This document shows positions 1 to 12,825 of a stretch of 13,860 nt of DNA, one piece after another; position 1 is the stretch's first letter; each line of letters begins with the position of its first letter. The DNA is from Paludibacteraceae bacterium (lineage in GTDB: Bacteria > Bacteroidota > Bacteroidia > Bacteroidales > Paludibacteraceae), in NCBI GenBank assembly GCA_017402895.1, contig JAFPLG010000087.1, forward strand, positions 1 through 13,860. Direction: 5' to 3'. Below the pieces are notes generated by a model, which ran no database searches, was not told the origin of the DNA, and saw only the letters and a program-made list of their open reading frames with translations. The position numbers and the translations under genes were made by a program.

Positions 1-2697
1 ACGCCATGGACACTGCCAAGCAATACGGCACTTTGCGTCGGCCCGAAGATTGACTACGTGGCTGTAAGAAAGCCGTCAGTATTCAGCGATCAGCATTCAG
101 AGGTTGTCATTCTGGCGGAAGCGCGTCTGGATGCGTACAAGAAAGAGTTGTGCGGCACGGACGAAGAGGGCAACGTACGCGAACCGGAAATCGTATGGCG
201 CGGCAAGGGAACCGACCTGGTAGGATTGGAGTATGAACCGCTCTTCCCGTGGGTGAAGTTGGAGAACGCATGGCGCGTTATCCCGGGTGACTACGTGACG
301 ACGGAAGACGGTACGGGTATCGTACATATCGCGCCTACCTTCGGTGCGGACGATAAGAAAGTGGCAGACGCTGCCGGTGTGCCGGGACTGTACATGCAGA
401 CCAAGAACAATGGTCCGCGTCCGATGGTGGACTTCACCGGTAAATACTGGAAAGTGGAAGACCTGGACGAAGCATGGTATAAAGCAAATGTCAACGACGA
501 ATTATATAGTAAGTACGCCGGCCGATGGGTGAAGAATGCCTACGACCCGCAGTTCACTGTGGATGGCAAGTACGACGAAGCCGCTGCCCAGAAGGCTGAG
601 ACGCTGGACCTGCACCTATGCCTGGAGATGAAACAGGACGGCCGACTGCTGCGCACCGAAAAACATGTGCACTCGTACCCACACTGCTGGCGCACCGACA
701 AGCCGGTACTCTACTATCCGCTGGACAGCTGGTTCATCCAGTCGACCAAGGCTCGTGAGGATATGATTCGTCTGAATCAGACCATCAACTGGCAACCCGA
801 ATCCACCGGTACAGGACGTTTTGGTCAGTGGCTCAACAACCTCAACGACTGGAACCTGAGTCGCTCGCGTTATTGGGGCACACCGCTGCCAATCTGGCGC
901 ACTGAGGACGGACAAGAGGAGATCTGTATCGGCAGCATCAAAGAGCTATTCGAGGAGATAGACAAATCCATCAAGGCCGGACTGATGACCGAGAACCCGT
1001 GGCCGAAACACGTGGTAGGCGACTACAGCAAGGAGAACTACGACCCAAGCGTCATCGACCTGCACCGTCCGTACGTGGATAATATCATACTGGTTTCGCC
1101 GAGCGGCAAGCCGATGCGTAGGGAACTGGACCTGATCGATGTTTGGTTCGACTCGGGCGCTATGCCGTATGCGCAAAACCACTATCCGTTCGAGAACCAA
1201 GACCTGCCCCGCACAGCCGACTTTATCTCGGAGGGCGTGGACCAGACCCGCGGATGGTTCTTTACGCTCCATGCCATCCATACGATGATCGAAGGCACCG
1301 TGGCATACAAAAATGTCATCTCCAACGGACTCGTGCTCGACAAGAACGGCAATAAGATGAGTAAACGTTTGGGCAATGCCGTAGATCCTTTCGGCGCGAT
1401 GGACCAATATGGTCCGGATGCCGTACGCTGGTATATGCTCACGAACAGCAGTCCGTGGGAGAACCTGAAATTCGATACGGAAGGTGTGGATGAGGTGCGT
1501 CGTAAGTTCTTCGGCACACTGTATAACACCTACGGATTCTTTGCGCTGTACGCGAATGTGGATAATTGGCCCGGTTTAGAACCGGAGCAAGCCAGCCATG
1601 CGGCGTACTCCGAAATTGATAAGTGGATACTTTCCAAACTGAACTCCCTTGTCAAGGAGGTGACGGAGGCTTATGAGGCATACGAACCCACCAAGGCCGG
1701 ACGTGCTATTTCGGACTTTGTGTAGGACGACCTGAGCAACTGGTATGTTCGATTGAACCGCAAACGTTTCTGGGGCGGCGAGATGACGCCCGACAAAGAG
1801 GCAGCCTACGAGACGTTGTATCAGTGCCTGAAGACCATCGCCCAACTGATGGCTCCGAATGCGCCGTTCTTCGGCGACCGCCTCTATCGTGACTTGGTAG
1901 GCGAGACCGTTCACCTGAGCGAGTGGCCCAAGGCCGACGAAGCGCTGATTGATAAGAATCTGGAGCGTCAGATGTACCTGGCACAACAGGCTACGAGCAC
2001 CATCCTCAGCTTGCGTAAGCGCGCCGAAAAGAACGTGCGTCAACCGCTGCAGAAGGCCGTCATCCCGACGCCAGACCTAGAGACGGCAGAGGCCCTGAAG
2101 CACGTGGAGGAACTGATTCGCAGCGAGGTGAACGTCAAGGAACTGGTGATCGTTCCGGCCGAGAAATCGGAGATTCGACTGGTGAAGAAAATCAAGCCTC
2201 AGTTTAAGGTGCTGGGCAAGAAAGTTGGTGCCCAGATGAAAGCTGTGGCTGCGGAGATCAACGCGATGACGCAAGATCAGATCGCCCAAATGGAAGCCGA
2301 GGGTACGTACACCCTACACGATACACCCTACACCCTTGTTGCCGAGGACGTAGAGATACTGACGGAAGACATGCCGGGTTGGCTTGTAGCGAACAACGGC
2401 ATACTGACTGTCGCGCTGGATATCGAACTGACCGACGAACTAATCGAAGAGGGTGTGGCTCGCGAACTGGTGAACCGTATTCAAAACCTCCGCAAGTCCT
2501 CCGGACTGGAGATAACCGACCGTATCCGCGTGGAGATCGAAGACCAAGAGACGATTCACAACGCCGTGCTCCACTGCCAGGAGTATATCGCCGCACAGGT
2601 GCTGGCTACGGATATTAGGCTAATGGCGAATGGTGAATGGCCAACGGCTATTGACATCAACGGACAGAACGTAAACATCAAAATAGAAAAAGCATAA
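1..2697 (+). CDS. ileS: Isoleucyl-tRNA synthetase, 5' partial, interrupted by an in-frame TAG
   Basis: Charges tRNA-Ile with isoleucine in the cytosol. The frame is open from base 1, so the gene begins left of the window; the HIGH region is missing. The visible part opens in the CP1 editing domain (TPWTLPSNTA, then GTGIVHIAPTFGADD with the editing-site aspartate), continues through the catalytic core (NLSRSRYWGTPLPIW, DVWFDSGAMPYAQ) and the KMSKR loop at 1354-1368, then the anticodon-binding domain (LSNWYVRLNRKRFWGG). The C-terminus has no cysteine zinc site, which fits the type 2 (eukaryote-like) IleRS of Bacteroidota, a class often little affected by mupirocin (family knowledge). A TAG at 1723-1725 falls between ISDFV and DDLSNWYVR, where I recall asparagine in Bacteroides; the same frame then runs on with full family similarity to a TAA at 2695-2697. 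Three 7-bp-period arrays lie in the gene. Either a nonsense mutation, a sequence error or readthrough; identity is near certain, functionality is not. Confidence 0.93.
74..101 (+). repeat. Degenerate 7-bp tandem array, unit NNTCAGN, four copies, inside ileS
   Basis: Four successive 7-mers share TCAG at the same phase: CGTCAGT at 74, ATTCAGC at 81, GATCAGC at 88, ATTCAGA at 95. It encodes roughly PSVFSDQHSE, in the editing-domain loop after KIDYVAVRK. As I recall, Bacteroides IleRS has a stretch like YNAYTGEKMT here, of nearly the same length and unrelated sequence. The units are degenerate, so taken alone chance is possible. Confidence 0.55.
1723..1725 (+). other. In-frame amber (TAG) codon inside ileS
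   Basis: The codon splits the gene just after the KMSKR-bearing core and before the anticodon-binding domain. The 323 codons after it are open, in the same frame, and read as conserved IleRS, so there is no frameshift. A single C-to-T change from CAG (Gln), or one substitution from AAG, GAG or TAC/TAT, would create it. The other gene ends seen in the window use TAA (seven, counting the true ileS end) or TGA (one); none uses TAG. Confidence 0.9.
2308..2335 (+). repeat. 7-bp tandem array, unit TACACCC, four copies, inside ileS
   Basis: Units start at 2308, 2315, 2322 and 2329. Three are exactly TACACCC and the second is TACACGA. Because three units make 21 bases, the peptide repeats every seven residues (TYTLHDT then PYTL). 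It lies in the C-terminal domain between a conserved lysine-rich segment and the EDVEILTEDMPGWLVAN block. Confidence 0.8.
2621..2648 (+). repeat. 7-bp tandem array, unit GAATGGC, four copies, near the ileS 3' end
   Basis: Units start at 2621 (TAATGGC), 2628 (GAATGGT), 2635 (GAATGGC) and 2642 (CAACGGC). A fifth, weaker unit, ATTAGGC, precedes them at 2614. They encode about LMANGEWPTA in the last 30 residues of IleRS, a poorly conserved part of the protein. Confidence 0.75.
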
Positions 2698-3159
2698 ATG
2701 AATTTCAAATTTAAAATTCCAAATTTCAAATTCCTATGTCTTGTTCTGCTAGGCATGGTGATGACGAGTTGTTTCAACAACCAGCCGACCTTCTATCTAA
2801 AGGACCTGCAGGGTCTATGGCAAGAGAACAACACCGAACATTATGTGCGCTTCACCACCGAGCAATCCGACGAGGCGGGTTACCTCTACGGCCGCGAGTG
2901 GGATGAGTCGGAAGATATCTACGAGCAGGACCTGCTGGACTACCTGAGCAAGTACGGTATCCACGGTAACGGATGGTTTAAGTACCTCTTCGAGACCGAC
3001 AACCAAAAGCTGACCGAGATCCATCTCATGGACAACGGCGGTGCGGAGATACCGAAGATATACGTGGTGACCAAGTTGACGAGCACCACATTGGAGTACT
3101 ACGAGAAAGACCACAAGGCCATCTCGTTCAGCTTCCAGAAAATGGTGGAAAAACAGTAA
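2698..3159 (+). CDS. Small lipoprotein of unknown function, possibly lipocalin-like
   Basis: A 153-residue secreted lipoprotein. Residues 1-25 form a signal peptide: a basic start (Lys4, Lys6, Lys11), a hydrophobic run FLCLVLLGMVM and a lipobox MTSC with Cys25 as the lipidation site. The mature part begins with asparagine-rich FNNQ, then LQGLWQENN and alternating strand-like stretches such as HYVRFTTEQ, IYVVTKLTS and TTLEYYEKD. This recalls the small lipocalin-like lipoproteins of Bacteroidota (a GLW motif followed by beta strands), but I do not recognise the family with certainty. The ATG follows the ileS TAA with no gap, so translation is probably coupled. The next in-frame ATG (residue 20) would destroy the signal peptide, so this start is required. 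Codons 2-13 consist of an A/T-rich 7-bp array, making the signal peptide's basic region a repeat product. Confidence 0.8.
   Translation: MNFKFKIPNFKFLCLVLLGMVMTSCFNNQPTFYLKDLQGLWQENNTEHYVRFTTEQSDEAGYLYGREWDESEDIYEQDLLDYLSKYGIHGNGWFKYLFETDNQKLTEIHLMDNGGAEIPKIYVVTKLTSTTLEYYEKDHKAISFSFQKMVEKQ
2701..2735 (+). repeat. 7-bp tandem array, unit AATTTCA, five copies, at the lipoprotein start
   Basis: Units start at 2701, 2708, 2715, 2722 and 2729. Two are AATTTCA exactly; the others are AATTTAA, AATTCCA and AATTCCT. The array begins on the base after the start codon and encodes NFKFKIPNFKFL, which shows the expected seven-residue period. It is much richer in A+T than its surroundings. Confidence 0.85.
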
Positions 3160-6519: not shown

Positions 6520-8622
6520 ATGAAAAAACTACTAATTATGAGCTTCGCGCTCTTATCGCTTATGGCTTGCAACAAGTCGGGGAAGGAGAATCCCCTGTTA
6601 GCAGAACCCGAGAATGCGTATGGTATTCCCGCTTTCGACAAAATCAAACTGGAGCATTACATGCCTGCTTTCGAGGAGGCTATTCGTCAAGAGAAGGCCG
6701 AGATTGCGGCTATCATCCGCAATGAGGAAGAACCTACTTTTGCCAACACCATCGAGGCGCTGGACCGCAGCGGTCAGTTGCTCAATCGCGTAGAAGGTGT
6801 GTTCTTCAACGTGCTCGAGGCTGACGGCAACGACGAGATGAACGAGATAGCCGAACAGGTATCGCCTATGCTGAGTGACCTCGGCAGCGAGATACTGCTC
6901 AACGACTCCCTGTTCCAGCGTGTGAAGGCCGTGTATGACCAACGCGAGTCGCTGGGTTTGGATCCGGAGCAGATGCGTCTGCTGACCGAGACCTACAAGT
7001 CGTTCGCCAACAACGGTGCTCTGCTCAACCCCGAGCAGAAAGCTCGTCTCGCTGAGATCAACAAAGAACTGGGCCTGCTGAGTCTGAAGTTCGGCAACAA
7101 CGTAGTAGCAGAGACCAACGCTTATCAGAAGTTCATCAAGGACGAAGCTGAACTCAAGGGTCTGCCCGAGAGTGCAAAGGCTGCTGCAGCAGAAGAGGCT
7201 GAAGCTGCCGGTCATAAGGGCGAGTGGCTCTTCACGCCGAAGCGCACCAGCTTCACGCCGGTACTCCAGTACTGCGAGAACCGCGAACTACGTAAGGAGT
7301 TGCTCATGGCCTATACCACGCGTGGTAACCACGGCAACGCCAACGACAACAAAGAGGTCATCAAGCGTACCATGGCGCTGCGTATCGAGAAGGCAAAACT
7401 CTTCGGTTATCAGAACCCGGCCGACTATATCCTGGCCGACTGCATGGCCAAGGACTCGAAGACCGTAGATCAGTTCCTGCAATCCGTTTGGACTCCGTCG
7501 CTCGAAGCTGCTAAGCGTGAGGCAGCCGAACTGCAGAAACTGCTGGACAAGGACCTGCCGGGCGAGAAACTGCAGCCCTGGGATTGGTGGTACTATGCCG
7601 AGAAACTGCGCGCAGAGAAATACAACCTCAACGAGGAGGAACTCAAGCCCTACTTCGAACTGAGCAATGTTCGTCAGGGTGCTTTTGACTTGGCACACAA
7701 ACTATACGGCATCAACTTCGAGAAACTGGAGGGTATGCCTGTCTACAACCCCGAAGTAGAGGTGTTCAAGGTAACCGAGGCGGACGGATCGCTGGTAGGT
7801 ATCCTCTATACCGACTATTTCCCCCGTTCGGGCAAGCGTCCGGGTGCTTGGATGAACAATATCCTGAGCCAGTACGTAGATGCTGATGGCGTAGATCACC
7901 GTCCGGTAATCATCAACGTAGGTAACTTCAACAAACCCACCAAGGACAACCCGTCGCTGCTCTCGATGGACGACGTAGAGACCCTGTTCCATGAGTTCGG
8001 TCATGCCCTGCACGGACTGCTGAGCAAAGCGCACTACCAGAGTCTGAGTGGCACCAATACGCCGCGCGACTTTGTGGAACTTCCTTCGCAATTCATGGAG
8101 AACTACTGCTACGAGCCGGAGATTATCCGTACCTATGCGCGTCATTATCAGACAGGCGTAGTTATCCCCGACAGCCTGATTGAGAAAATCAACAATGCCG
8201 GTAAGTTCAACCAGGGCTTTGTGACCACCGAACTGCTGTCTGCATCGATTCTGGATATGGATTATCATGAGTTGACCACTGCCGAGGGACTGGATGTAGA
8301 TCAGTTTGAGGCTGCTTCGATGGAGAAGATGCACATGATTCCGGAGATCATCGTTCGCTATCGTTCGACGTTCTACAACCATATCTTCACCACGGGTTAC
8401 GAGGCAGGCTACTACAGTTACACTTGGTCGGCCGTACTGGATGCTGATGCGTTTGCAGCCTTCAAGGAGACCGGTAATATCCTGAATCCTGAAGTGGCTA
8501 AACGCTTCCGTCATCTGCTGGAGCAAGGCGGTACGCGCGATGCTAAGGAATTGTATCTTGAGTTCCGCGGCAAAGAGGCTGACCCGCAAAACCTGCTCCG
8601 TCGCAAGGGATTTATCGAGTAA
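6520..8622 (+). CDS. dcp: M3-family dipeptidyl carboxypeptidase, lipoprotein form
   Basis: A 700-residue zinc metallopeptidase of the M3 family, close to the usual length for peptidyl-dipeptidase Dcp, which removes dipeptides from the C-termini of peptides. The zinc site is HEFGH at residues 491-495 with the third ligand expected at Glu520 in DFVELPSQFMENY. Further conserved parts are the opening PAFDKIKLEHYMPAFEEAI and the late YEAGYYSYTWSAVLDADAF, which carries tyrosines thought to contact substrate. The N-terminus is a lipoprotein signal with the lipobox LMAC (Cys17), so the enzyme is membrane-anchored and probably periplasmic. It follows the AsmA-like gene by 5 nt and likely belongs to its operon. 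Dcp is favoured over oligopeptidase A by the overall pattern, but these two subgroups cannot be told apart with full certainty by eye. Confidence 0.93.
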   Translation: MKKLLIMSFALLSLMACNKSGKENPLLAEPENAYGIPAFDKIKLEHYMPAFEEAIRQEKAEIAAIIRNEEEPTFANTIEALDRSGQLLNRVEGVFFNVLEADGNDEMNEIAEQVSPMLSDLGSEILLNDSLFQRVKAVYDQRESLGLDPEQMRLLTETYKSFANNGALLNPEQKARLAEINKELGLLSLKFGNNVVAETNAYQKFIKDEAELKGLPESAKAAAAEEAEAAGHKGEWLFTPKRTSFTPVLQYCENRELRKELLMAYTTRGNHGNANDNKEVIKRTMALRIEKAKLFGYQNPADYILADCMAKDSKTVDQFLQSVWTPSLEAAKREAAELQKLLDKDLPGEKLQPWDWWYYAEKLRAEKYNLNEEELKPYFELSNVRQGAFDLAHKLYGINFEKLEGMPVYNPEVEVFKVTEADGSLVGILYTDYFPRSGKRPGAWMNNILSQYVDADGVDHRPVIINVGNFNKPTKDNPSLLSMDDVETLFHEFGHALHGLLSKAHYQSLSGTNTPRDFVELPSQFMENYCYEPEIIRTYARHYQTGVVIPDSLIEKINNAGKFNQGFVTTELLSASILDMDYHELTTAEGLDVDQFEAASMEKMHMIPEIIVRYRSTFYNHIFTTGYEAGYYSYTWSAVLDADAFAAFKETGNILNPEVAKRFRHLLEQGGTRDAKELYLEFRGKEADPQNLLRRKGFIE

Positions 8623-9574: not shown

Positions 9575-11893
9575 TCAAAAATCCACCTGGAAACCGGCAT
9601 GTACGTTGATGCCCGCCTGAGCAAAGTACCACGTGCAACGACTGCCGTCTTGGAACCGGCTGGCTTCGGCGCCGCCGTTGTTGGCATATTTCTCGTTGAA
9701 GATATTATTAATTTGACAATTCAATCGTATCTCGGGCACACCGCGTCGCCCTGCACACCACTTCTGCATAGGTAGTTGGTACTGGAGGTGGACATTCGTT
9801 GTGGTATAGGCTTTGAGCATAGCATGTACGTCCATCGTGTTGTCCAGATACTGGCGACCGACGACATTGGTCTGGATAGTAGCCATGAATCCGGCATAGT
9901 CAAACGTAAAGAGAGACATAGCGGTGACCGAAGGCGAGAAAGCGATGGTTACATCACCCACGACGGAGTCTTGGCCCACCCAGTTCCAGTCGTTCTGGTT
10001 ATCATATACGTCGATCAGCTGACGATAGTTACGAATCTTGTTGCGGCTCAGCACCAAGTTGCCTTCCCAGCGGAACCAATTGGTGATGCGTACACCGGCC
10101 GTCAGTTCAACCCCCATACGATACGAGTCCTTGACATTCGTCGTCAGGTATTTGCCAACGTCGTTGTATTCGCCTGTGAGTACTAGCTGGTTGTCATAGT
10201 CCATGAAATAGAGGTTCATACCTATATTAAAACGCGTGTGCGCGTACGTGTAACCCAACTCATAGTCGTAGAGTGTCTCCGTCTTGGGCATCGTACCGGA
10301 ATACGTATTGCTCGTCGGGTCGAAGGCAATATTCTCCGTATAGTTGCTGCGGCTGGGTTCGCGATTGGCCATAGCAAACGAAGCCGAGAGCAGATGCCCG
10401 CCGTTCTGATAGGTCAGTCCGGCCTTAGGATTGAAGAAATGAAAATCCTGCGAGAGCGGCAGTTCGCTCATCGTCTCGTCGTTGATGCCGCTGAGCGTAT
10501 AGCGCACGAAGCGGTACTGTAGGTCGGCATAGAGCGCAAGCTCCTCTCGGGAACGATGGATGATACGCCAGTTGGCTTTGGCAAAAGCGTTCGCATCTAT
10601 CTTATTACCCCGATTGCGATAATACTCATAGTGCACAGGGAGTGGCGTCAGCGTCGGTTTGGCTAGGTAGTCGAGTACACCCCAGTGATGGCCCATGTAG
10701 TAGTTGGCTGCGGCGCCTAGCTGTACGTCCACGGGGTTGGACACGTACTTAGCCGATACGATGCCGCCGAAGAAGTGGTTCTCGAGCCATTTCTGGTAGA
10801 GAGAATAACTCTTCTTTCCTGGGTCGGCCACCATGGTGGTGTCCAATCCGAAATAGCTGTATTTCTTCTTCTTGTACTGCTCGTAGAAGCCACCTCCATG
10901 CGTGTAGTGGAGCGTGGTTTGGAACAACCACTGCGGCGTGAAACGATGGGTGATGCTCAGTTGCGCATGTTGCTGGGCGTAGTTGTCGGTCTGGTTGGGA
11001 TAATAGACCGTCGAATCCGAACCGTTGGCTGCGGGTACTGTATATTCACCTGCCGGGTTGTAGCGACGATCCGCTCCGTTCAGTCCATAGGCCACGTCGT
11101 ACGACACACCTTCCCATCCCATGCCGGTTTTCTCGTTGCCGCCAAAGAGGCGTGCCTCCACCTGAGTCTTGCTGCCCCGCCATCCGAAGTCGCCGTAGTA
11201 GCTATACAGGTCGGACTTGGTGCGATAGAGAAATCCGTCGGAGTTGACCTTCGAAAAACGTGCGTTGGCGTACCAGTTATTGGGCAGGACCAGATGGCCG
11301 CTCACCATCTCGCGAAACGTGTTGTACATACCACCGTTGAAGGCAATGCTCAGATGACTGCGATCCTCTTCGTTCTTCGCCATTCGCACTTCGCTATTAT
11401 CCGTTCGCATATTCAGACTCGCGCCAAACGAAGCCGAACCATTGGTGCTGGTTCCCACGCCGCGTTGCACGTCGATACTGGTGAGCGAACTCGACATATC
11501 AGTCATGTTGACCCAGAAGACAGTCTGGCTCTCCTGGTCGTTGAGCGGCACGTCGTTGACGGTCATGTTGATACGTGTGTGGTCGGTGCCGCGAACGCGG
11601 AAATAGGTATAACCTACGCCCAGACCGTCGTCCGAAGTGGCTTGCAGTCCGGGTACGGTGGTCAGCAGGAAAGGCAGATTCTGTCCCGTATTCTCCCGGT
11701 TGAGTTCCTCCGAACCGATGATATCGTTGCTCAGCGTCTCTTGTTTGACACGCGTAGCCTGGACGCTGACTTCGCCCAACTCTTTATAGCGCGTCAGCGA
11801 GTCCTTTTGATTCTCTACTTGAGCGAGGAGAGTCCCGCTCATGGAAGTGGCTGCCACGAGGCAGCAAACAGCATAAAACGTTTTGTTTTTCAT
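9575..11893 (-). CDS. TonB-dependent receptor under TPP-riboswitch control, likely thiamine importer
   Basis: A 772-residue outer-membrane receptor that should import its ligand with energy from TonB-ExbBD. Residues 1-24 are a signal peptide ending at LLA before QVEN. A TonB-box-like GEVSVQATR lies near 40-48, then the plug domain (LPFLLTTVPGLQA, YFRVRGTDHTRINMTVND, IDVQRGVGTSTNG) and a barrel ending in phenylalanine, the usual signal for the BAM complex. There is no N-terminal carboxypeptidase-like domain, unlike SusC-type receptors. The substrate is inferred from the TPP aptamer directly upstream; family knowledge links such receptors (omr1/OMthi of Bacteroides) to thiamine or its precursors. 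I chose the ATG at 11893 (MKNKTF), which follows AAGGAA, over the ATG at 11908, because the latter lies in the conserved TAATGC core of the aptamer. Confidence 0.92.
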   Translation of the reverse strand: MKNKTFYAVCCLVAATSMSGTLLAQVENQKDSLTRYKELGEVSVQATRVKQETLSNDIIGSEELNRENTGQNLPFLLTTVPGLQATSDDGLGVGYTYFRVRGTDHTRINMTVNDVPLNDQESQTVFWVNMTDMSSSLTSIDVQRGVGTSTNGSASFGASLNMRTDNSEVRMAKNEEDRSHLSIAFNGGMYNTFREMVSGHLVLPNNWYANARFSKVNSDGFLYRTKSDLYSYYGDFGWRGSKTQVEARLFGGNEKTGMGWEGVSYDVAYGLNGADRRYNPAGEYTVPAANGSDSTVYYPNQTDNYAQQHAQLSITHRFTPQWLFQTTLHYTHGGGFYEQYKKKKYSYFGLDTTMVADPGKKSYSLYQKWLENHFFGGIVSAKYVSNPVDVQLGAAANYYMGHHWGVLDYLAKPTLTPLPVHYEYYRNRGNKIDANAFAKANWRIIHRSREELALYADLQYRFVRYTLSGINDETMSELPLSQDFHFFNPKAGLTYQNGGHLLSASFAMANREPSRSNYTENIAFDPTSNTYSGTMPKTETLYDYELGYTYAHTRFNIGMNLYFMDYDNQLVLTGEYNDVGKYLTTNVKDSYRMGVELTAGVRITNWFRWEGNLVLSRNKIRNYRQLIDVYDNQNDWNWVGQDSVVGDVTIAFSPSVTAMSLFTFDYAGFMATIQTNVVGRQYLDNTMDVHAMLKAYTTTNVHLQYQLPMQKWCAGRRGVPEIRLNCQINNIFNEKYANNGGAEASRFQDGSRCTWYFAQAGINVHAGFQVDF

Positions 11894-11968: not shown

Positions 11969-11989
11969 GAAATGAATTATGAATTACGA
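11969..11989 (-). repeat. Short 7-bp tandem array, unit TCATAAT, across the araC stop codon
   Basis: On the minus strand three 7-mers run TCGTAAT (11989), TCATAAT (11982) and TCATTTC (11975). The middle unit is perfect and its neighbours share four or five positions. The array supplies the last two araC codons (Asn, Ser) and the TAA, and ends 7 nt before the riboswitch. Further TTCA-containing sequence lies between it and P1. With only three units it is the weakest of the five arrays along with the one at 74. Confidence 0.55.
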
Positions 11990-12825
11990 TATACTTTCGG
12001 TGTGACCCCTACGTGCGATTTGAAGAATCGGTTGAAGAATGCGATGTTGTCAAATCCCAGCGAGAGGGCGATCTCTTTGATTTGCAGATTAGTGACTTTG
12101 AGTTGTGCCTTAGCGTCGGTCAGTATGGCATCGTTGATGATATCGCCGGCCGTACGTTCGCTCACCTGACGAATCGTGGAGCAGAGGTGGGGCAGGGTGA
12201 TACGCATAGCTTGCGCATACTGGTTCACGTGATGCCACTCGTGGTAGTGCTTCACCACCAACTGGCAGTACTCGTGATAGATCTCCGACTTACGATCCAG
12301 CGGACGCAGTTCGACGTCGTTCTGTTGACGAGCCACGTTGACATAGCTGGTCTGGAGTAGATTGAAAATATGCACCATCTTCTCCGTACTCAGCATCGAC
12401 GGTTGCGTGTTGAGTGCCATGATGAGCGTCTGGTACATGCTGCAGAGCACATCCGTTTGTTCCTGTCGCAGACTCAGCTTCGGCGACTTGAGTTGCATAG
12501 CCGATAGCGACATGCGGTTGTTGAAGGTGTGCTTCTCCAGGAAGCTGCTACCAAACACAATCCAGTAGACCAGTGCGTCTTCCGATACATCGTGGATGAA
12601 CAGAAAGTTGCCCGGCTCAAACAGCAGCACGTCGTTGGCCTTGAAAGAGTATTCGGTGATATTGACTGTCGCACTCGCTGTTCCGCGCACGAGTAGGGCA
12701 TATACGCCGCACTTGATCTTACACGGGAAGCGACCATACTCCTTCATCAGTTTGCCGCTGGCATCACCGATCATGTAGTCGCCATACGGACAATCCAGTA
12801 TAGGTATATTGTTGTTTTCCTCCAT
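11977..12825 (-). CDS. AraC-family transcriptional regulator
   Basis: A 282-residue regulator. Residues ~20-110 look like a cupin sensor domain (GVYALLVRGTASATVN, FKANDVLLFEPGNFLFIHD). About residues 180-282 form the double helix-turn-helix of the AraC family: YAQAMRITLPHLCSTIRQ is the first motif, and KEIALSLGFDNIAFFNRFF with the family-typical ending HVGVTPKVYR the second. It should bind DNA after sensing a small ligand; the effector and targets are unknown. The start is the ATG at 12825, 18 nt after the potD stop, and the stop lies 15 nt before the TPP aptamer, so it is probably co-transcribed with potD and may read through into the receptor gene. Its codons near the end fall in a 7-bp array. 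Confidence 0.9.
   Translation of the reverse strand: MEENNNIPILDCPYGDYMIGDASGKLMKEYGRFPCKIKCGVYALLVRGTASATVNITEYSFKANDVLLFEPGNFLFIHDVSEDALVYWIVFGSSFLEKHTFNNRMSLSAMQLKSPKLSLRQEQTDVLCSMYQTLIMALNTQPSMLSTEKMVHIFNLLQTSYVNVARQQNDVELRPLDRKSEIYHEYCQLVVKHYHEWHHVNQYAQAMRITLPHLCSTIRQVSERTAGDIINDAILTDAKAQLKVTNLQIKEIALSLGFDNIAFFNRFFKSHVGVTPKVYRNS

Follow-up and report, generated by a model that had tools for sequence, protein, structure and literature searches.

Short heptamer tandem arrays with changing units in ileS and other genes of a rumen Paludibacteraceae genus

We analysed tandem arrays with a period of seven bases in a 13,860-nucleotide contig (JAFPLG010000087.1, the whole of which is called the window here) and in its relatives. 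The contig comes from a metagenome-assembled genome (MAG) of a Paludibacteraceae bacterium, which comprises 1.25 Mb in 185 contigs, is 59% complete and belongs to a genus with many species; the nearest records are Paludibacteraceae or Bacteroidales MAGs, many of them named after the rumen or another ruminant gut. The plus strand of the window begins with ileS (1–2697, its 5′ end lying beyond the contig), which matches tRNA-synt_1, Anticodon_1 and DUF5915. It is followed by a small plus-strand gene (2698–3159) whose product, with no Pfam match at E 1e-5, is lipoprotein-like, as judged from a signal peptide with a cysteine. Three arrays on this strand were found by Tandem Repeats Finder (TRF). 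Site 1 (2308–2336) holds four copies of TACACCC (4.1 by TRF) and encodes TYTLHDTPYTL in the C-terminal domain of ileS; site 2 (2618–2641) is built of GGCGAAT and GGTGAAT units (3.4 copies) and encodes LMANGEWP near the ileS C-terminus; and site 3 (2701–2732) holds 4.6 copies of AATTTCA, which form the N-terminal part (MNFKFKIPNFKFL) of the lipoprotein signal peptide. With matches scored +1 and mismatches −2, the three reach 10, 10 and 13, respectively, and no segment of any other period from 4 to 13 gets to 10 in the 13,860 bases. Positions 1–2735 contain three segments scoring at least 8; 500 first-order Markov shuffles gave 0.034 on average and never more than 1.

Two further arrays named in a preliminary description of this DNA are weak. 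At 74–101 on the plus strand, an ileS loop that exceeds the common VEVETPAGDHI form by 6 residues carries a degenerate array in which only a four-base TCAG core recurs every seven bases (at 76, 83, 90 and 97). It is missed by both TRF and a score cut of 8; its credibility comes chiefly from relatives, at least two of which (L080 and L109) carry period-7 arrays with other units at this loop. The other, given as TCATAAT at 11969–11989, reduces to about two perfect copies of ATGAATT at 11972–11986 on the plus strand (TRF score 30), which overlap the 3′ end of a minus-strand gene for an AraC-type regulator (11977–12825; HTH_18). TRF also reported a two-copy period-7 repeat at 8479–8493. Separately, the window ileS has an in-frame TAG at 1723–1725, between ISDFV and DDLSNWYV, which may be a nonsense change, a population mixture or a sequencing error in the MAG; 29 aligned same-genus relatives have open frames of 1,106–1,207 residues with no break at this position.

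Part of this rumen Paludibacteraceae genus abounds in short heptamer arrays of about four or five copies and 30 bp, and 11-mers and 8-mers form a smaller class alongside. Our census covered the best 80 of 565 confirmed related ileS loci together with the window (1,490,415 bases, a sample centred on ileS) at a score cut of 14, which all three solid window arrays fall below. Period 7 accounted for 178 segments, followed by periods 11 (50), 8 (16), 9 (6) and 12 (2); periods 2–6, 10 and 13 gave 0 or 1 each, 14, 21 and 22 appeared as multiples, and 15, 16, 18 and 24 gave 18, 15, 12 and 9 segments, respectively. Markov shuffles of the clade loci contained no period-7 segments even at a cut of 12. 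Within 1,005 open reading frames (ORFs; 1.41 Mb), 136 period-7 segments compared with 0, 1 and 0 in three synonymous-codon shuffles. Chance and codon usage are ruled out by these controls, as is repetition at the protein level alone, the signal being lost on codon shuffling. An assembly artefact is unlikely, as the pattern occurs in 80 MAG records of several projects and the ileS frames are open. The preliminary description had proposed one process with a fixed seven-base step; that proposal came through the codon-shuffle comparison and is borne out for the clade.

Load varies greatly between genomes. Away from ileS, period-7 arrays numbered 31 in 200 kb of one species (G035) and 6 in 148 kb of the window's genome, window included, and 100 kb from each of five other genomes gave 3 (G014), 1 (G027), 1 (G008), 0 (G028) and 0 (G029). 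A pattern of three TCAAYTN units, counted in 151 genus genomes, was present in 130, with loads of 0 to 568 (12 in the window's genome); across the phylum, 57 of 296 genomes had it. In 274 kb of sequence, sampled as twenty stretches from other families of Bacteroidales, there was one period-7 segment and there were five of period 10. For another genus of Bacteroidota (f42 g78), pattern counts hinted at an excess, which was not seen at the census threshold in 280 kb from two of its genomes. Units vary even within a species, with 23 different ones among the 31 arrays of G035. The favoured step may also differ between species, with a shift toward 11 in some, because G027 has six period-11 arrays and one of period 7 in 100 kb, whereas G035 has 5 and 31 in 200 kb. 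The longest array seen is intergenic, spans 145 bp and mixes TTATGGG with TTACGGG (G456, L228:2280-2424).

Assigned with a simple ORF caller, the 178 census arrays fall into ileS (58), other ORFs (85) and intergenic sequence (35), and 91 arrays from eleven sets of same-genus stretches away from ileS divide into 59 intergenic and 32 in ORFs. As the coding fraction, where computed, is about 0.89–0.95, spacers are enriched in arrays, though ORFs hold many. The arrays sit in frame within unrelated protein genes: eight of ten array-bearing proteins that were scanned have Pfam matches (including KsgA-type, RluD-type, biotin/lipoate ligase, GH3 and S66 peptidase), and further carriers are an M3 peptidase and a long protein downstream of ileS, and PcrB. 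Among the 85 arrays in ORFs other than ileS, the only stop-free strand was the coding strand in 50 and the opposite one in 8; both strands were open in 22 and neither in 5, whereas 9 of the 35 intergenic arrays have stops on both strands. The presence of arrays inside an essential gene, ileS, is confirmed. Their clustering there reflects tolerant loops of the protein rather than a hotspot of ileS alone.

The same loops hold different units in different species. At ileS site 1, 50 of 81 sequences are marked as period 7 by a lenient rule (at least one, L097, by edge spill-over only). Stricter labels give 43 of 80 rows with a period-7 array and at least seven units among species: TCAAYTR (14), TTTCAAC (13), TTTCGAC (7), TACACCY (3), TTTCAAC with CTCAACT (2), TTACGAA (2) and TCAGCTR (2), the rest being hairpins (4) or none (33). 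On the ileS tree this site requires at least 33 changes over nine states, and at least 16 for presence alone. Site 2 is marked in 28 of 81 sequences, with several units and at least 20 changes, and a complex cassette with GAGCAAAGCGG occupies it in 6 of the 80 rows of the tree. A further variable loop, site 0 (ANVDNW..EIDKW), holds the inverted repeat CCGGTT-TAG-AACCGG in the window (1571–1585, plus strand). Other species among the 81 have 7-, 8-, 9- or 11-mer arrays or other hairpins in this region (window positions of about 1555–1620), and at least 41 state changes are required. The gene start at site 3 has AATTTCA also in L052 and other heptamers in L032, L044, L045 and L060. Outside the variable sites, the ileS sequences of L077 and L062 share 95.9% identity, while sites 1 and 2 differ between them as whole blocks. 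The flanks in ileS go together with the array class; on these alignments and trees, many of the site changes may represent allele exchange between species. In PcrB, one loop scores at least 8 for period 7 in the query, whose array was the reason for choosing it, and in 9 of 11 orthologs, with about eight units; one of the remaining two orthologs has a hairpin of C- and G-runs and one has neither.

Several other features were noted. PcrB and a cytidine/adenosine-deaminase-like domain lie in one open frame at L264:1602-2846, an apparent gene fusion; the PcrB position has open frames of 386–434 amino acids in 11 of 12 loci, the domain scan having covered L264. Tandem arrays of 11 bp (CCGACGGTCAA, AAACGAGACG and others) occupy ileS site 0 in L034, L036, L038, L041, L047, L048 and others, at about position 9800 in loci with a 10-kb flank. 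Such arrays are also found intergenically, where some differ by exactly 11 among relatives. Inverted repeats of the CCCTCCC/CCCTCTC type lie in frame in the same ileS loops of L035, L074, L080, L088, L089, L091, L093 and L095, and are thus a second kind of repeat using the array-bearing loops. A dispersed word, TTCMAACAGCGAAGCG, with small variants, stands in tandem in two ileS loops (site 2 of L053, L057, L062 and L076, and site A of L089).

An AlphaFold (AF2) model of the C-terminal 314 residues of ileS (22 sequences, mean predicted local distance difference test score (pLDDT) 73, predicted template modelling score 0.52) places positions 2308–2335 in strand 185–187, a turn and the start of strand 194–196, with a local pLDDT of about 65. 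Site 1 is therefore predicted to be a strand–turn–strand hairpin of the C-terminal domain, and site 2 falls in a loop between strands 285–291 and 298–302. Compared by eye, the site-1 peptides of most rows, with an array or not, follow the pattern [YF]xLxxxx[YF]x[LI] or a shorter form. A seven-residue repeat of the hairpin pattern equals 21 nucleotides, or three heptamers, which may connect it to the arrays.

We then considered how the units relate to one another. Placed on one strand and rotated, the 73 distinct clade units show a loose CTTTCAA-like consensus of 4.25 bits per unit, compared with 3.62 ± 0.10 (maximum 3.84) in 60 sets of letter-permuted units; the window units, rotated by eye, read TCAGCAT, ACACCCT, TCRCCAT, TCAAATT and TCATAAT. 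When orthologous arrays have equal length but different units, the in-register alignment gives the highest unit identity for 188 of 202 pairs in ileS and for 13 of 18 in other coding sequences (CDS) or, per distinct unit pair, for 25 of 32 and 8 of 13. In phase they agree at 4.19 of 7 bases in ileS, compared with 1.4–2.2 out of phase (32 unit pairs), and at 4.08 of 7, compared with 1.9–2.1, in other CDS (13 unit pairs). Because in-register agreement far exceeds out-of-register agreement, many orthologous arrays look like a single array with its unit changed in every copy; others are real swaps. L038 and L053, for example, have five copies of TCACCTC and TCAACTC, respectively, over the same length of 39 with flanks 96% identical. 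At ileS site 1, four copies of TTTCAAC contrast with four of TTTCGAC, a difference that looks DNA-driven because several residues are altered at once. The units do vary, as the preliminary description had said, but not completely, and its conclusion that they do not descend from one repeat does not fit the many orthologous arrays of this kind.

Length is largely preserved as units change. In deduplicated array–array orthologous pairs, the length difference is 0 in 220 of 333 for ileS and 42 of 52 for other CDS, and 21, the in-frame slippage step, in 2 and 1, respectively. Arrays were also compared with orthologs lacking one, in comparisons that are not independent: the difference is 0 in 26 of 161 (CDS) and 81 of 775 (ileS), at most 6 nucleotides in 71 and 294, and a multiple of three in 150 and 767. 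As these differences are often small or zero, the arrays stand in for other sequence; replacement rather than lengthening, as first proposed, is frequent. Local reiteration of the ancestral segment is unsupported as a general origin, the array unit being hardly present in array-less orthologs.

Across the clade, then, the period is fixed and the unit variable, the same loops are reused, units often change in register at constant length, and whole loop alleles are common to several species. We favour an explanation, with a probability of about 0.45, in which a mostly transient misalignment of the polymerase by seven nucleotides acts together with frame selection and recombination. Replication or repair synthesis would misalign by exactly seven nucleotides. 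A slip resolved before synthesis ends would copy in the neighbouring heptamer and leave the length unchanged, and repeated slips would perfect weak seven-nucleotide quasi-repeats and spread a new base through all copies. Unresolved slips would alter length and survive only intergenically or where they add up to a multiple of three. Selection on the protein would retain arrays with a fitting peptide, such as that of the site 1 hairpin, and homologous recombination would carry alleles between species.

A number of observations weigh against this explanation. Agreement is not best in phase in 14 of 202 ileS and 5 of 18 CDS pairs (7 of 32 and 5 of 13 per unit pair), it owes partly to shared protein constraint, and a clean single-register change was seen in 10 of 426 comparisons. 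Many non-array alleles are unrelated sequence or hairpins. Array units match the orthologous non-array segment at 5.39 of 7 bases, compared with 5.00 for random stretches (82 arrays, p = 6e-4), a slight resemblance that comes partly from decayed YQL alleles; 11-mers show no excess over random stretches in the same comparison (6.60 compared with 6.84). Because the unit barely resembles the array-less segment, in-place conversion lacks support for the origin of arrays. A constitutive polymerase trait alone also leaves the range of loads within the genus unexplained, and is insufficient for one genome (G404) in which all 15 arrays found by the pattern are TCAAYTT. It is conceivable, though in our view unlikely, that a lineage-specific activity with a seven-nucleotide ruler and an 11-nucleotide setting overwrites tolerant loops of essential proteins in place and later swaps the heptamer in all copies with length kept, so that these loops would change in whole blocks instead of through point mutations.

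That uniform genome speaks for the possibility, less probable than polymerase misalignment but the closest to it, that arrays are ready-made cassettes: an existing array would be copied into a break or gap elsewhere as filler DNA, by template switching or by some enzyme. This predicts a favoured unit in each genome and arrays of similar length at unrelated sites. The G404 arrays, found with a pattern that leaves position 7 free, all have T there, measure 22–34 bp and lie in ORFs and spacers with mostly unrelated flanks; among the first 15 of 111 matches listed for G424, position 7 is A or G with one exception. For the ileS loci, units are more similar within genomes (4.65) than in label permutations (4.44; 0 of 500), with identical units in 12 of 234 within-genome pairs compared with 304 of 13,574, and alleles with and without an array at a given site often bear no relation to each other. 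Yet the excess within genomes is slight at the ileS loci and G035 does not show it, and a tandem pair of TACACCC units occurs only at ileS in the 59% complete genome of the window, where no second array was found of which the site 1 array could be a copy. Reverse transcriptase (PF00078) is no more helpful to the cassette model, with 3 positive genomes among 15 rich in arrays and 4 among 15 poor in them; over these 30 genomes, incomplete ones included, 7 were positive and we saw no link to a reverse transcriptase or diversity-generating retroelement.

Classical slipped-strand expansion of chance seeds with a seven-nucleotide preference, an idea that PMC4679880 attributes to a 2007 paper, would need a selection filter but no special machinery, and appears improbable. 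As slippage would have it, the copy number of intergenic 11-mer arrays is exactly one apart in 5 of 10 orthologous pairs (few loci, each contributing several pairs), and the intergenic heptamer arrays of array-rich species can be as long as the 145 bp given above. Each seven-nucleotide step, however, breaks the ileS frame, where arrays of different units nevertheless have the same length; a difference of 21 is seldom seen (3 of 385 pairs); and no copy-number step of 7 was seen in 9 intergenic heptamer pairs, most of which are different arrays. Least probable of all is a standing pool of loop alleles, each array having arisen once long ago and been exchanged by homologous recombination, which the co-travelling flanks, the shared site-2 cassette and the many state changes of site 1 would suit, but which accounts for spread and not for origin, fixed period or in-register unit differences, and which meets arrays in other genes and spacers of the sampled genomes as well.

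Among candidate machinery, the Y1 transposase domain (PF01797) was found in 10 of 15 genomes rich in arrays and in 4 of 15 poor in them. Across 61 genomes of 90% or greater completeness, the median number of pattern matches was 17 in the 42 with a match resembling RAYT (transposases associated with repetitive extragenic palindromes, REP) and 4 in the 19 without (p = 0.006). After accounting for genome size the partial rank correlation was 0.24 (p = 0.06, with no phylogenetic correction). RAYT-like proteins occur in 101 of the 151 genus genomes; array-rich G394 and G426 are not among them, and G441 has nine RAYT-like protein matches and zero pattern matches. The link of the arrays to RAYT is weak, confounded with genome size and subject to clear exceptions. 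The proteins themselves have about 330–470 amino acids and a conserved C-terminal region after the Y1 domain, with 1–9 matches per positive genome (for example, L241:1254-2324 and L235:1082-2131).

The genus offers a natural experiment on the seven-base preference, with loads from 0 to 568 and many orthologous sites for tracing units. Should in-place unit change occur in genes intolerant of frameshifts, simple slippage would be insufficient, and the loops of essential proteins would evolve blockwise, as a genuine form of protein change. Where such proteins differ in their loops, the differences should not be counted as independent point changes.

REP/RAYT systems are hairpin repeat systems. 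In some species of the clade, hairpins are found in the ileS loops that carry arrays elsewhere; the arrays themselves are not hairpins. Rickettsia palindromic elements, described in the available part of a review (PMC10969869) as palindromic families of about 150 bp, likewise place repeat DNA in frame in unrelated genes, apparently compatibly with structure; the clade arrays differ from them in being tandem, about 30 bp long and variable in unit, with no long palindromic family.

Closer parallels are the heptanucleotide long simple sequence repeats (SSRs) or short tandemly repeated repetitive (STRR) sequences that the accessible parts of PMC4692102 and PMC4679880 report for cyanobacteria, Xanthomonas and Nostoc. 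The clade arrays share with these their seven-base units, three or more head-to-tail copies, an excess over chance and a patchy distribution among species. They differ in lying often in conserved housekeeping proteins, in having many units per genome and an 11-mer class alongside, and in that one site holds different units in different species. The same portion of PMC4679880 credits a 2007 PNAS paper with the finding that heptanucleotides are the commonest long-repeat class in most genomes, and suggests a seven-nucleotide polymerase contact as the cause of the seven-base preference. It also describes TAACTGA direct repeats in Beggiatoaceae, Cyanobacteria and five Bacteroidetes, including Paludibacter propionicigenes, so that the earlier remark of knowing no described equivalent in Bacteroidales was too strong. 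Like ours, those repeats are heptamer arrays; they occur in a bacterium whose family name marks it as a relative, mixed groups of other heptamers are noted as well, and one set lies inside a purC gene. As presented there, they are unlike ours in having a single unit and in lying mostly outside genes, close to start codons. The TAACTGA unit is absent from the TRF rows of the window, where no search was aimed at it, and in rotated form (AACTGAT) it makes up one of the 31 arrays of G035.

A 2025 survey across the tree of life (PMC12699852) reports, in the passages available, high repeat density in Bacteroidota, including in CDS, and enrichment of some 6–9 bp repeats in prokaryotic phyla; those passages do not mention heptamer arrays at orthologous protein loops or turnover of units. 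Our literature search, with most subscription papers outside its scope, turned up no paper describing arrays in this group that occupy orthologous loops of conserved proteins. Going by the parts of PMC12699852 and PMC4679880 cited here, repeat density in Bacteroidota and an excess of heptamers as such are not new and are already in print. Arrays that keep their position and length while varying their unit, in housekeeping proteins, seem to be new.

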